A stretch of 22,900 bases of DNA from a virus: positions 1-22,900 of the IMG/VR virus record IMGVR_UViG_3300042306_000111; one strand, 5' to 3'. Each line of letters begins with the position of its first letter. Position 1 is the first letter of the stretch. The position numbers and the translations under genes are program-made. The notes beneath the pieces were generated by a model. It was not told where the DNA came from, did not search any database, and saw only the letters and a list, made by a program, of their open reading frames with translations. Shown one piece after another: positions 19,227-22,900 of the stretch.

Positions 19227-20105
19227 ATGCCGGACTTTGGGATAATGCGTGGCTTTAATGAAAAATTGTTCGGTGACAAGTTAGTCGCTGGGCAATTGCC
19301 TACGCAGTTGGGGTTAATTGGAAGTCAAGAAGTCAATGATTTTGATGCGGATGCAAATGCATTTTTTGCAAGGGTAACTACCGCAGGGGGAACATTGTCA
19401 GCAACTGAACAAGTTGCAATTGATACTCTTGTCAGACAAATGAAAGCCGATGGAACTTGGACATTAATGAAAGCCATTTATCCAATGGTGGGGGCAAGTG
19501 CGGCAGCGTGTGCGCAGAACTTAAAGAGTTCAAGTTTTACGGGTACATTTACCAGCGGTTGGACTTTTGCGAGTACGGGGGCAACGCCTAACGGAACGAG
19601 TGCGTTTTTGGATACCACATTCAATAGCAATACAAATCAAACTGTCAATAATTTTTCTTTGAGTGCTTATATTAGAACTTCAACAATGGGTAGCGGAGGA
19701 AGAACTGATATTGGAAATTATCAAGGAGGATCAGCACTACCATTGACGCTTATACGAACAAACAATACCACAAGGGATTTCTATTGTTGGGATTATCTGT
19801 CCGCTTATGTATCAGTCACTACATCGAATGCGAGTGGTATGTGGGGGACTTCAAGAAGTGGGGCTTCTTCTTGGATATCATTTGAAAGAAATACCGCAAC
19901 TGCAAGAACAACAACAACCGCACAAACTACTTTACCAAACAACAATGTTTATATAGGAGCTAGTAATGCTAACGGTACTGCCAATGACTTTTCATCAAGA
20001 GAAATAGCGTTTGCACATATGGGGGATTCATTGAGTAATACTCAATTTAATAACTTTTATACCGCAGTACAAGCGTTTCAAACCACCCTTTCACGCCAAG
20101 TATAA
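19227..20105 (+). CDS. Lectin-like tail protein, probable receptor-binding
   Basis: A 292-residue protein. The N-terminus MPDFGIMRGFNEKLFGDKLV is a likely attachment segment. A conserved helical part (about 40-90, FFARVTTAGGTLSATEQVAI and MKAIYPMVGAS) follows. The remainder (about 95-292) is a Ser/Thr/Asn-rich beta domain like concanavalin-type lectin/glucanase folds, with GWTFASTGATPNGTSAFLDT (about 110-129), strands containing NNFSLSAYIRT, and an end EIAFAHMGDSLSNTQFNNFY (about 261-280), where a lectin domain closes with an activity-like AHMG-D-L strand. Such domains bind surface sugars of the host. The call is by fold pattern and location. Confidence 0.65.
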   Translation: MPDFGIMRGFNEKLFGDKLVAGQLPTQLGLIGSQEVNDFDADANAFFARVTTAGGTLSATEQVAIDTLVRQMKADGTWTLMKAIYPMVGASAAACAQNLKSSSFTGTFTSGWTFASTGATPNGTSAFLDTTFNSNTNQTVNNFSLSAYIRTSTMGSGGRTDIGNYQGGSALPLTLIRTNNTTRDFYCWDYLSAYVSVTTSNASGMWGTSRSGASSWISFERNTATARTTTTAQTTLPNNNVYIGASNANGTANDFSSREIAFAHMGDSLSNTQFNNFYTAVQAFQTTLSRQV

Positions 20106-20326
20106 TGATAGGTTACACACTTACACCCGAACAAAAGGATTTGATACAAGGGCAATACTACTCACCTTATCAGTTCTTTAATTGCGTTCAAGATATTAAC
20201 GGCGTTTGGTTTTTGTTCCTTAGCGATGAGGACAAGCCAGAAGTTCAAGCATCACAATACGCTTGGGTTCTAACCTTACCCCAATCCGAATACATCCCAC
20301 CACCACCACCACCATTTCCGATATGA
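20105..20326 (+). CDS. Small proline-tailed phage protein
   Basis: A 73-residue protein beginning one base inside the lectin-like gene stop (TAATG). It has TLTPEQKDLIQGQYYSPYQF (5-24), then FNCVQDINGVWFLFLSDED (about 24-42), an aromatic-rich beta part, and a proline run (PPPPPPFP) at the end. Very similar small proteins follow tail genes in Bacteroidota phages as I recall them; the function is unknown. The proline tail suggests contact with a partner. It overlaps the kinase ATG by four bases. Confidence 0.55.
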   Translation: MIGYTLTPEQKDLIQGQYYSPYQFFNCVQDINGVWFLFLSDEDKPEVQASQYAWVLTLPQSEYIPPPPPPFPI

Positions 20327-21546
20327 AACTAAGCATCCGTAGTTGGATTGCTTTGATAATTGCTGCGGTAATTATGCTGACCTTTCTTTCCGTGCAGTCC
20401 GCACTTGTTTTCAAATACATTGAGCCGACCTACACATCGGCTCTTTTTGGCTATTGGTCAATTATTGCCTTTATACCTTTTTTCTATTTCGTTGTGATTG
20501 AGTTCGTCAGAAAAGCACGACATAAATTCCAATCAATAGATGATACATTCAATGCCATTGATGCCAGTAATATCCTGTTAGAGTTTGACAAGGATGGCAC
20601 AATCACAAAAGCCAATCCAAAGTTCTACACAGTTCTCGGCTATGATGACATTATTGGACAATCGCACAAAGTTCTTGTTGCGGATTTTGTTCAATCACAA
20701 TGGCAGTCGTTTTGGAATGAGCTTAGAGTTGGCAGATTCAAGCAAGGAGAATATCAACGGCTCAAATCAGATGGCTCGGAGATTTGGCTATTCGGTAACT
20801 ACAACCCCATCAAAGATCCATACGGTGAAGTTTACAAAGTGATGCTGATTGCAACCGACATCACCGACAAGAAGATAATTGAAGCGGATGTAAACAAAAA
20901 GAATTCCTATTTGGAACACGCTGCGAAGATTCTAAGACACGATATGCACTCAGGAATCAACACATACATTCCTCGTGGTTTGAGTTCCTTAAAACGGAGA
21001 TTGTCTGAAGAGCAAATTAAGGACTTGAAGATTGATGCACCTTTGCGAATGATTGAAGAGGGATTGACCCACACGCAAAAAGTTTACAAGGGAGTGAAGG
21101 AATTCACCAACCTTGTGAAGGCAGATGCACAACTTGAAAAGAATGAGTTTGATCTGCGTGAAATCCTAATCAGTTACCTGAGCAGTACCAGTTACGAAAA
21201 GCAAGTTGTCATTGAAGAGCTGCCCATCATTGAAGTGAACGAGTCATTGTTTTGTACTGCCGTTGATAACCTAATCAGAAACGGGTTAAAGTACAACGAT
21301 AGTTCAACAAAGGTGATTCGCATATTTGCGGAGGACAACTATCTTTGCATCGTTGACAATGGTCGTGGAATGAGTCAAGAGGATTTGATTCAATGGTCGC
21401 AACCGTATAAACGAAAAGAAGGGCAGAAAGAAGCTGGAAGCGGATTGGGTTTGAACATTTGTATTGCGATAATGGATGAACACAAATTCCCGGTAACTGC
21501 TGAGAAATTAGAAATAGGTACAAAATTAAAGATAAAAATACGATGA
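20323..21546 (+). CDS. Membrane sensor histidine kinase with PAS domain
   Basis: A 407-residue kinase; the ATG at 20323 overlaps the upstream TGA. Two membrane helices (about 7-31 and 42-62) leave a periplasmic loop of only about ten residues, so sensing is probably by the cytoplasmic PAS domain (about 77-190, with LEFDKDGTITKANPKFYTVL and the end IATDITD). The phosphoacceptor box is AKILRHDMHSGIN with His206. The ATP domain has the N box NLIRNGLKYN (316-325), G1 DNGRGM (345-350) and G2 GSGLGLNI (372-379), so it is expected to be active. It is translationally coupled (ATGA) to a receiver protein. A complete kinase of this kind within a phage structural/lysis block is unusual. Confidence 0.9.
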   Translation: MKLSIRSWIALIIAAVIMLTFLSVQSALVFKYIEPTYTSALFGYWSIIAFIPFFYFVVIEFVRKARHKFQSIDDTFNAIDASNILLEFDKDGTITKANPKFYTVLGYDDIIGQSHKVLVADFVQSQWQSFWNELRVGRFKQGEYQRLKSDGSEIWLFGNYNPIKDPYGEVYKVMLIATDITDKKIIEADVNKKNSYLEHAAKILRHDMHSGINTYIPRGLSSLKRRLSEEQIKDLKIDAPLRMIEEGLTHTQKVYKGVKEFTNLVKADAQLEKNEFDLREILISYLSSTSYEKQVVIEELPIIEVNESLFCTAVDNLIRNGLKYNDSSTKVIRIFAEDNYLCIVDNGRGMSQEDLIQWSQPYKRKEGQKEAGSGLGLNICIAIMDEHKFPVTAEKLEIGTKLKIKIR

Positions 21547-21980
21547 TTGATTCCATATTGCTTGTAGATGACGAGGATTTATTCCACTTAGTTTTTGAAG
21601 ATTCTTGCTCGTTGCTGGACATCACACTTTCCCTCCAGAGTTTAACATCTTCAGACGAAGCCGACCGACTATTCAAGAAGTGGTTCAATGAAGGTCCTGT
21701 GGAAGATAGACCCGAATGCGTGTTTGTGGATTTGAACATCATCGGCAGTTCGTTTGATGGGATTGAGTTGATTAGAAAAATCAACACGGAGTACGGCAAC
21801 GGGGTTGTCATCGGAATCATCTCCAGTTCAGACGATAAACAAGAAATTGACAAGGCGAAATCCGTTGGAGCTCAGTTTTGGATTATTAAATCAGATGAGA
21901 TTGAGCCAAGATTGGAATCCTTTCGCAGAGATTATGAAGGGTACAAGAATAAAACTGCTCCGTTTAAGGTATACAAGTGA
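21543..21980 (+). CDS. Receiver-only response regulator
   Basis: A 145-residue CheY-like receiver domain. The acidic pocket LLVDDEDLF holds Asp9 and Asp10, the phosphoacceptor is Asp63 in VFVDLNI, the switch serine lies in GIISSSDD (94-96), and the conserved Lys is in WIIKSD (Lys116). An insertion of some residues around 47-57 (NEGPVEDRPE) lengthens the loop before the Asp63 strand. There is no output domain: the protein ends about 15 residues after the last expected helix. Its phosphorylation by the coupled kinase is inferred from the ATGA overlap. The output must therefore be through protein binding, with the next protein in line as a candidate partner. Confidence 0.88.
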   Translation: MIDSILLVDDEDLFHLVFEDSCSLLDITLSLQSLTSSDEADRLFKKWFNEGPVEDRPECVFVDLNIIGSSFDGIELIRKINTEYGNGVVIGIISSSDDKQEIDKAKSVGAQFWIIKSDEIEPRLESFRRDYEGYKNKTAPFKVYK

Positions 21981-22519
21981 TTCTAAGCAATGATACTGCC
22001 CAACAACTGCTCAACCTATGGAAAACAAAAAAGGTTGGTTTAGAGGGCAATGTCTTGAAAGTCATCCAAACAACGGATGAGGAATTCCAAAGGTACATTG
22101 ACGAGGCAAAGCAGCGTGATCAAGAAACAAGACGGAAACGATTAGAGATTACCAAACAAGTCCAATCACAAAACAAGGACTTAATTGAAAGCCAAGCGGA
22201 TCGTGAGAAGTTGATGATAGATTTGCAAGAATCACTTGCACAATCTGAGATGCTCAAGAACGCAGCGGTTGAGGATTTGGAATCACTACAAAAACGCACT
22301 CAATTTGAACTGATTGGATTGATTGTCAAGGTCGCATTATCGGTGATTGGTGCGGTTTGTATCTTGACCACTATACTTTATTTGTATGTCATCAGTAAAG
22401 GCTTAAATTCTACAATCATTGAAACTACCTGGAGCAATCTATTTGGAATCATCTTGACCAACTCGTTCTCAATCATAGGAACGATTATGGGTGTTAAACA
22501 TATGGCAGATAAAAAGTAA
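21977..22519 (+). CDS. Coiled-coil membrane protein coupled to the regulator
   Basis: A 180-residue protein from a GTG overlapping the regulator stop (GTGA). Residues about 6-32 (TAQQLLNLWKTKKVGLEGNV) form an N-terminal unit with K and G in a LWKTKKVG motif. A long charged coiled coil follows (about 35-108). Two membrane helices stand at about 112-138 and 150-172 (the second around the sequence LTNSFSIIGTIMGVKHM), with a short C-terminal tail. From memory, related proteins with coiled coil and a TWSNLFGIILTNSFSIIGTI-like end occur in phages of aquatic bacteria. The coiled coil would lie in the cytoplasm and could dock the receiver. A holin-like or lysis-timing role is possible by context only. 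Confidence 0.65.
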   Translation: MILSNDTAQQLLNLWKTKKVGLEGNVLKVIQTTDEEFQRYIDEAKQRDQETRRKRLEITKQVQSQNKDLIESQADREKLMIDLQESLAQSEMLKNAAVEDLESLQKRTQFELIGLIVKVALSVIGAVCILTTILYLYVISKGLNSTIIETTWSNLFGIILTNSFSIIGTIMGVKHMADKK

Positions 22520-22650
22520 TGGAAAAGATAGCAGAAATGTACATCGTCAGCATCTTCGCAGGAGCGATGATTGCATTGTTCTTCTTTGGATTGGTGTTCT
22601 TCGTTGATCAGTATTATATGGCGAAAGACAAAAAGCAACACAAGGACTGA
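22519..22650 (+). CDS. Tiny single-helix membrane protein (43 aa)
   Basis: A 43-residue frame whose ATG shares a base with the preceding TAA (TAATG). One membrane helix (about 8-29, IVSIFAGAMIALFFFGLVFF) follows a short polar start, and the end is basic (MAKDKKQHKD). This is the size and topology of small holins, pinholins or partners of spanins. Function is inferred only from size and from its place before a spanin-like gene. Confidence 0.6.
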   Translation: MEKIAEMYIVSIFAGAMIALFFFGLVFFVDQYYMAKDKKQHKD

Positions 22651-22666: not shown

Positions 22667-22900
22667 GTGGCATCTATCAAAAAACCTTCAGCACTTCCAG
22701 TATCGTTTGACCAATTTAAGAAAAATCCAATTGCTGCCGTGGCTTTTTGTATGCTTGTGGCTGTCAGCTATCTTTACATTGACCTTCGTTCAGGGTATAA
22801 AGAGCAGATTGAAAAGAGTAATCACAAGATAGATCAACTTGATATTAAGATTGACCGATTGACCTACGCCCTAAAGCGTTCGGATTCTGCATTGGCATCA
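22667..22900 (+). CDS. Spanin/Rz-like membrane protein (3' end outside window)
   Basis: At least 78 residues from a GTG start; the frame is still open at the window end. A short cytoplasmic start (FDQFKKNP) is followed by one membrane helix (about 21-38, AAVAFCMLVAVSYLYI) and a charged coiled-coil part (KEQIEKSNHKIDQLDIKIDR). This is an inner-membrane spanin (Rz) layout, and the same FKKNP, membrane and coiled-coil pattern is known to me from small proteins of Bacteroidota phages. The call is limited because the C-terminal half is unseen and no overlapping lipoprotein can be checked. Confidence 0.55.
   Translation, partial: MASIKKPSALPVSFDQFKKNPIAAVAFCMLVAVSYLYIDLRSGYKEQIEKSNHKIDQLDIKIDRLTYALKRSDSALAS

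Follow-up and report, generated by a model that had tools for sequence, protein, structure and literature searches.

A conserved phage-borne module of a histidine kinase, a receiver-only regulator and a membrane protein, linked to lysis genes in uncultivated viruses

The window analyzed here, the whole 22,900-base IMG/VR virus record IMGVR_UViG_3300042306_000111, encodes a sensor histidine kinase, a receiver-only response regulator (RR) and a third protein, P3, which we conclude with high confidence to be a conserved, phage-owned three-gene signaling module. Phage ownership and conservation of this compact unit (∼2.2 kb) are established in this analysis, and the cassette is shown to be statistically linked to lysis genes. 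A first-pass annotation had described the kinase and RR as a complete pair with intact catalytic residues, set among tail and lysis-type genes. The pair stands, but that interpretation lacked P3, the modularity of the sensor part, how widespread the family is and the statistical association with lysis genes. The annotated element should run to 22519 so as to include P3. The features of the region are as follows.

19227..20326, + strand: upstream neighbors, a 292-aa LamG-like protein, putatively of tail type (phrog_17104, function unknown), and a 73-aa ORF
20323..21546, + strand: sensor histidine kinase, 407 aa, ATG start (ORF, domain matches)
21543..21980, + strand: receiver-only RR, 145 aa (ORF, domain match, conserved residues)
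21977..22519, + strand: P3, 180 aa, starting at GTG, with a coiled coil and two predicted TM helices (ORF, linkage)
22519..22650, + strand: 43-aa ORF with one hydrophobic stretch, overlapping the P3 stop (sequence only)
22667..22900, + strand: Rz/i-spanin-like ORF, one TM segment followed by a coiled coil, running off the contig (sequence)

The kinase consists of two TM helices (∼11–29 and ∼41–59), a PAS domain (∼80–186), a DHp domain containing H206 and a HATPase_c domain (∼300–407), with Pfam matches to PAS_9 (1e-12) and HATPase_c (2e-11). The loop outside the membrane between the predicted TM segments is ∼11 residues long, in agreement with the earlier description of a kinase with almost no periplasmic loop. 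Residues H206, N316/N320, D345xG347xG349 and G372/G374/G376 are invariant among 23 homologues, in which the N, G1 and G2 boxes are kept. The RHDMHSG H-box with its phosphoacceptor His and the HATPase_c domain are both found in 88/88 non-redundant kinases; a strict G2 pattern is failed by some second kinases of tandem pairs. No match of the DHp to a Pfam HisKA family was obtained for the window kinase or, at E 1e-4, in a tally of the 88 kinases, and by its sequence the DHp is divergent. Against PDB sequences, the PAS profile of the kinase scores best with 3ewk (9.5e-24) and 8dik (4e-14), the FAD-binding PAS domains of MmoS and Aer. Here this type of sensor is joined to a phage kinase and may bind FAD.

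The RR and kinase ORFs share 4 bp (ATGA). The RR matches Response_reg (2e-7; 31.5 bits versus a cut-off of 30.2) and has a receiver fold with DD/D/S-T/K residues and no output domain, as expected from the first-pass statement that the system has no DNA-binding output. The closest folds are those of bacteriophytochrome/Rcp1 regulators. Residues D9, D10, D63, S94 and K116 are invariant among 18 homologues. The catalytic residues originally assigned to both proteins are thus correct and conserved, and homologues keep the phosphoacceptor residues, the loss of which had been named as evidence that would count against the pair.

The P3 ORF overlaps RR by 4 bp (GTGA), and its predicted TM helices span residues 112–130 and 155–173. 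The AlphaFold model contains a small N-terminal part, a 107-residue helix that includes both the coiled coil and TM1, and a TM2 hairpin; its pTM is just 0.33, as expected because the helix is extended. On the basis of the predicted TM segments and this low-pTM model, P3 is a small membrane protein with the TM hairpin looked for in a holin. It has no match among known holin families in Pfam and PHROGs, and nothing reliable was found in Pfam or the PDB, where the matches were scattered coiled-coil and membrane proteins. A structure search returned one viral relative, A0A6J5PRT3, with 41% identity. P3 represents a protein family without earlier annotation. As modeled, its cytosolic coiled coil and conserved TM hairpin would fit a switch that is read by the receiver, and would also fit a scaffold.

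The three genes are tightly associated. Kinase, RR and P3 are all present in 47/47 deduplicated loci with sufficient flank, and P3 directly follows RR, mostly overlapping it, nearly everywhere among loci fetched with the kinase or RR. In a second locus set, composed mostly of large phages, RR and P3 occur together in 84 of 85 loci and are usually overlapping or adjacent. Four RR–P3 loci in this set have no kinase nearby, and because the pair persists there, RR–P3 is the invariant core of the module. In two of the four, as read from sequence, the pair adjoins a GH19-endolysin-like gene with a peptidoglycan-binding N-terminus. Mean pairwise identity is 0.83 for the DHp, 0.84 for RR and 0.88 for TM2 of P3, the most conserved segment measured, compared with 0.48 for the TM part and 0.53 for the PAS domain of the kinase. 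Conservation therefore peaks where the signal is passed on and delivered. The distances of the three proteins are correlated (Mantel r 0.47–0.65, 0/2000 permutations), and dN/dS among close relatives is low (kinase 0.06–0.18, RR 0.05–0.09, P3 0–0.07), indicating that these are genes under selection and not chance ORFs.

While the transmitter core, RR and P3 TM2 are strongly conserved, the sensor part varies strongly. Kinase lengths range from 263 to 743 aa, and the types include TM plus PAS (the window), tandem PAS, soluble PAS (L127, discussed below), GAF plus PAS (GAF in 20/88 kinases), TM without PAS (L160, L168 and L180) and one kinase with TPR. Two kinases are present in 16 loci of the second set. 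In two phages, further genes lie between RR and P3.

L153:6920-8004 and L186:9499-10582: rhodopsin gene and gene for a multi-TM coiled-coil protein, both inserted between those of RR and P3

In both loci (L186 is a 297 kb record with a gp23 capsid gene) the insert encodes a 193-aa microbial rhodopsin and a multi-TM protein whose coiled coil is cytosolic. The rhodopsin matches PF01036 (1.2e-13), carries the RYxDW motif as RYMDW and has a DLTAK lysine that aligns with the Schiff-base Lys of OLPVRII. Its nearest solved relatives are OLPVRII, a giant-virus rhodopsin, and proteorhodopsin; we know of no earlier phage rhodopsin. Judged from these sensor sequences, the cue may be light, redox or energy state. 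Two other ORFs were noted beside the kinase. By eye, a YceI-like ORF (isoprenoid-binding type) lies between kinase and RR at L172:7016-7543, and a 66–80-aa membrane ORF ending in GVWTxFCPSKWFFxKxGxxxxEL is found directly 5′ of the kinase (L160, L126, L153 and L168) and near it in at least 12 loci.

The tail and lysis neighborhood proposed at first pass is supported. Upstream lies the LamG-like, putatively tail-type protein and downstream the spanin-like ORF, a homologue of which gives weak spanin matches (0.018–0.086). A near-identical contig, L004, extends beyond the window end. Its order is kinase, RR, P3, 43-aa TM ORF and spanin-like ORF, followed by signal-peptide coiled-coil, 192-aa endolysin-type (phrog_3000/33083 type), 73-aa holin-like and portal-like ORFs, and the 43-aa ORF belongs to this lysis block. 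To place lysis genes relative to the cassette, Pfam GH19, DUF5675 and M15_3 were located across whole records. Of the 26 records with a match, 11 have a lysis family no more than 2.5 kb from the cassette, one of these records being 430 kb in length, compared with 2.05 expected (P < 5e-6 by simulation), although these records include related phages and hence are not independent; merging two sister pairs gives 10/24. GH19 was picked after a GH19-like gene had been seen beside two cassettes, which makes the choice of family partly non-independent, whereas the whole-record positions are independent. A recognized lysis gene within 2.5 kb is present in just 24 of 56 non-redundant loci, a count that is biased because the families were drawn from the neighborhood itself. 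PHROG tallies of near versus far neighbors point in the same direction but lack the resolution for a count.

The neighborhood is not uniform. In many large-phage records the cassette neighbors are unrelated or unknown, and several phages that carry P3 encode a distinct holin-like gene close by. The window has the 73-aa ORF on one side of the cassette and the spanin-like ORF on the other, whereas L036 carries both of these ORFs, together with the tail gene, downstream of the cassette; this difference in placement indicates that the cassette moves as a unit within one gene block. Several other features of the flanks were recorded. Two unannotated families occur directly 3′ of P3 (L107:5127-5453 and L171:3449-3988) in 24 and 17 deduplicated loci, respectively, and DnaK-like ORFs, seemingly full-length by eye, adjoin the cassette at L206:4212-6077 (621 aa) and L257:493-2382 (629 aa). 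Many proteins in the flanks of L156, L157 and L177 begin with the leader MKIT(R/K)RQLRxLI, as if it marked them for delivery to one shared place, for example the capsid. Elsewhere in the window, a Dcm-type methyltransferase ORF (1570-2667) overlaps a 306-aa, LPTPTA-rich ORF in another frame (1700-2620), possibly reflecting dual coding or a frameshift.

The explanation we favor is a phage-dedicated phosphorelay in which RR, by acting on P3, sets the timing of lysis or of a related membrane event late in infection, a reading that we consider about evenly balanced against its alternatives taken together. The membrane kinase would sense a cue in the cell interior or membrane through its TM/PAS part and autophosphorylate H206, and the phosphate would pass to D63 of the stand-alone receiver. 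RR would act by protein contact, with P3 as the candidate partner: the receiver would bind P3, at its N-terminal domain or its cytosolic coiled coil, and alter the state of the TM hairpin. P3 would then serve as a holin, antiholin or comparable membrane switch under signal control, setting the time of lysis or of a late membrane event coupled to it. We infer phosphotransfer, P3 as the target, lysis timing and the cue from gene linkage, conservation, the correlated distances, the lysis link, the P3 model and the receiver-only nature of RR, which together favor this explanation. It is weakened by the 24/56 lysis loci, the unrelated or unknown neighbors in many large phages, the manner in which GH19 was chosen, the lack of a holin-family match, the separate holin-like genes, the metagenomic and often fragmentary nature of the contigs and the P3 pTM. 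Its parts differ in strength: P3 is likely to be the output of the module, while for lysis timing as the outcome the chances are roughly equal either way. A more tentative proposal, which we regard as possible but rather doubtful, is that a widespread virus-only system couples exchangeable sensors (membrane/PAS, GAF and, in at least two phages, rhodopsin) to one conserved kinase core–receiver–P3 chain. This chain would gate the phage's own membrane protein, so that light, redox or energy state sets the time of lysis.

An alternative to P3 as the output, unlikely but the strongest of those considered, is that the phosphorylated receiver targets a host protein in motility, envelope or stress signaling and that P3 is a mere membrane anchor or scaffold for kinase and RR. 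Receiver-only regulators often act on other proteins, the conservation of RR (84% mean pairwise identity) spans most of the protein and may exceed what contact with the kinase requires by itself, and the cytosolic coiled coil of P3 is long. However, the exceptional conservation of TM2 would be needless for a plain anchor, and both the retention of RR–P3 pairs where the kinase is not nearby and the lysis linkage argue against a host target. It is less probable still that the module guards the infected cell by sensing superinfection or host defense, with P3 altering the membrane in exclusion or anti-abortive infection. A membrane sensor joined to a membrane effector would suit such a role, as would the strong sensor variation, which suggests changing cues, but the neighbors are enriched for lysis genes and PADLOC, which covers anti-phage defense, gave no match for kinase, RR or P3.

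The distribution of the cassette bears on its origin. IMG/VR pattern scans found the kinase in at least 594, RR in at least 385 and P3 in at least 547 stretches (overlapping sets), on contigs of 4 to 430 kb. The search for the same gene pair in phage genomes suggested at first pass thus finds close relatives in hundreds of virus contigs, and the accompanying claim that phages rarely carry such pairs is true of cultured phages but not of IMG/VR: neither RR nor P3 is matched among 50,697 INPHARED phages, and for the kinase there is one partial match with 34% identity. A motif scan of 84,980 prokaryote genomes, which finds motif-keeping relatives only, matched one locus, L127, on a contig that also carries terminase-, portal- and PhoH-like ORFs and that we treat as a probable misbinned phage contig. 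No orthologues were found in the small phylum of its bin (P3 245, RR 199 and kinase 61 genomes), and plasmid relatives are distant (best kinase places 22–28% identity, RR 26–31%). In the collections searched, the cassette is in effect confined to viruses.

Bacteria have many PAS kinases, so a host-derived auxiliary gene pair, carried as a passive moron with no phage-specific role, could be envisaged. Single phages have acquired host kinases, for example the agrC of phiCDHM1 (PMC3901668). The single, phage-like match among prokaryote genomes, the low dN/dS and a three-gene order fixed across hundreds of virus contigs make this origin very improbable. Bacterial contamination or a prophage-border artefact, which might be raised because IMG/VR contigs are predictions, was rejected as having a negligible chance, given that the window, itself an entire virus record, encodes a terminase and a tape-measure protein, that T4-type gp23 major capsid genes occur in three cassette records of 237–297 kb (two with a terminase match), and that essentially no bacterial genomes among those scanned have close relatives.

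The module shares its H/N/G1/G2 boxes, DD-D-S-K receiver and overlapping operon with canonical two-component systems of a PAS kinase and a CheY/Rcp1-type receiver, but differs from these in being virus-borne, in having no Pfam HisKA match in 88 kinases, in its obligate P3 and in its swappable sensors on a conserved transmitter–RR–P3 core. Phages time lysis with holins and antiholins, such as lambda S and T4 T/RI/RIII. P3 resembles these as a predicted small membrane protein, encoded at some loci in or near a lysis block; unlike them, it has no holin-family match, and its proposed control is a phosphorelay, which to our knowledge governs no known holin. Peptides and autoinducers are signals to which phages are known to respond, but we are aware of no published example of a full histidine kinase–receiver circuit that belongs to a phage and has its own conserved membrane partner. 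The open-access literature searched yielded no description of the three-gene module, and nothing relevant on phage rhodopsin, phage-encoded kinases or lysis timing, beyond one comparable case, phiCDHM1. The agr3 genes of this Clostridium difficile phage likewise include a sensor histidine kinase, AgrC; the abstract describes AgrD, AgrB and AgrC as host-derived homologues in one phage group and mentions no regulator, whereas the module here comprises kinase, RR and P3 and is virus-only and widespread (PMC3901668).

The L004 endolysin has relatives among Bacteroides and crAss-like phages, pointing to Bacteroidota as hosts, and the hundreds of uncultivated carrier phages probably infect Bacteroidota. 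These phages may read the state of the cell to choose the moment of bursting. The module is compact, its core is near-invariant and it is absent from the scanned cellular genomes, which makes it testable in laboratory strains. If the module times lysis, environmental sensing would directly control the viral killing of abundant aquatic bacteria.
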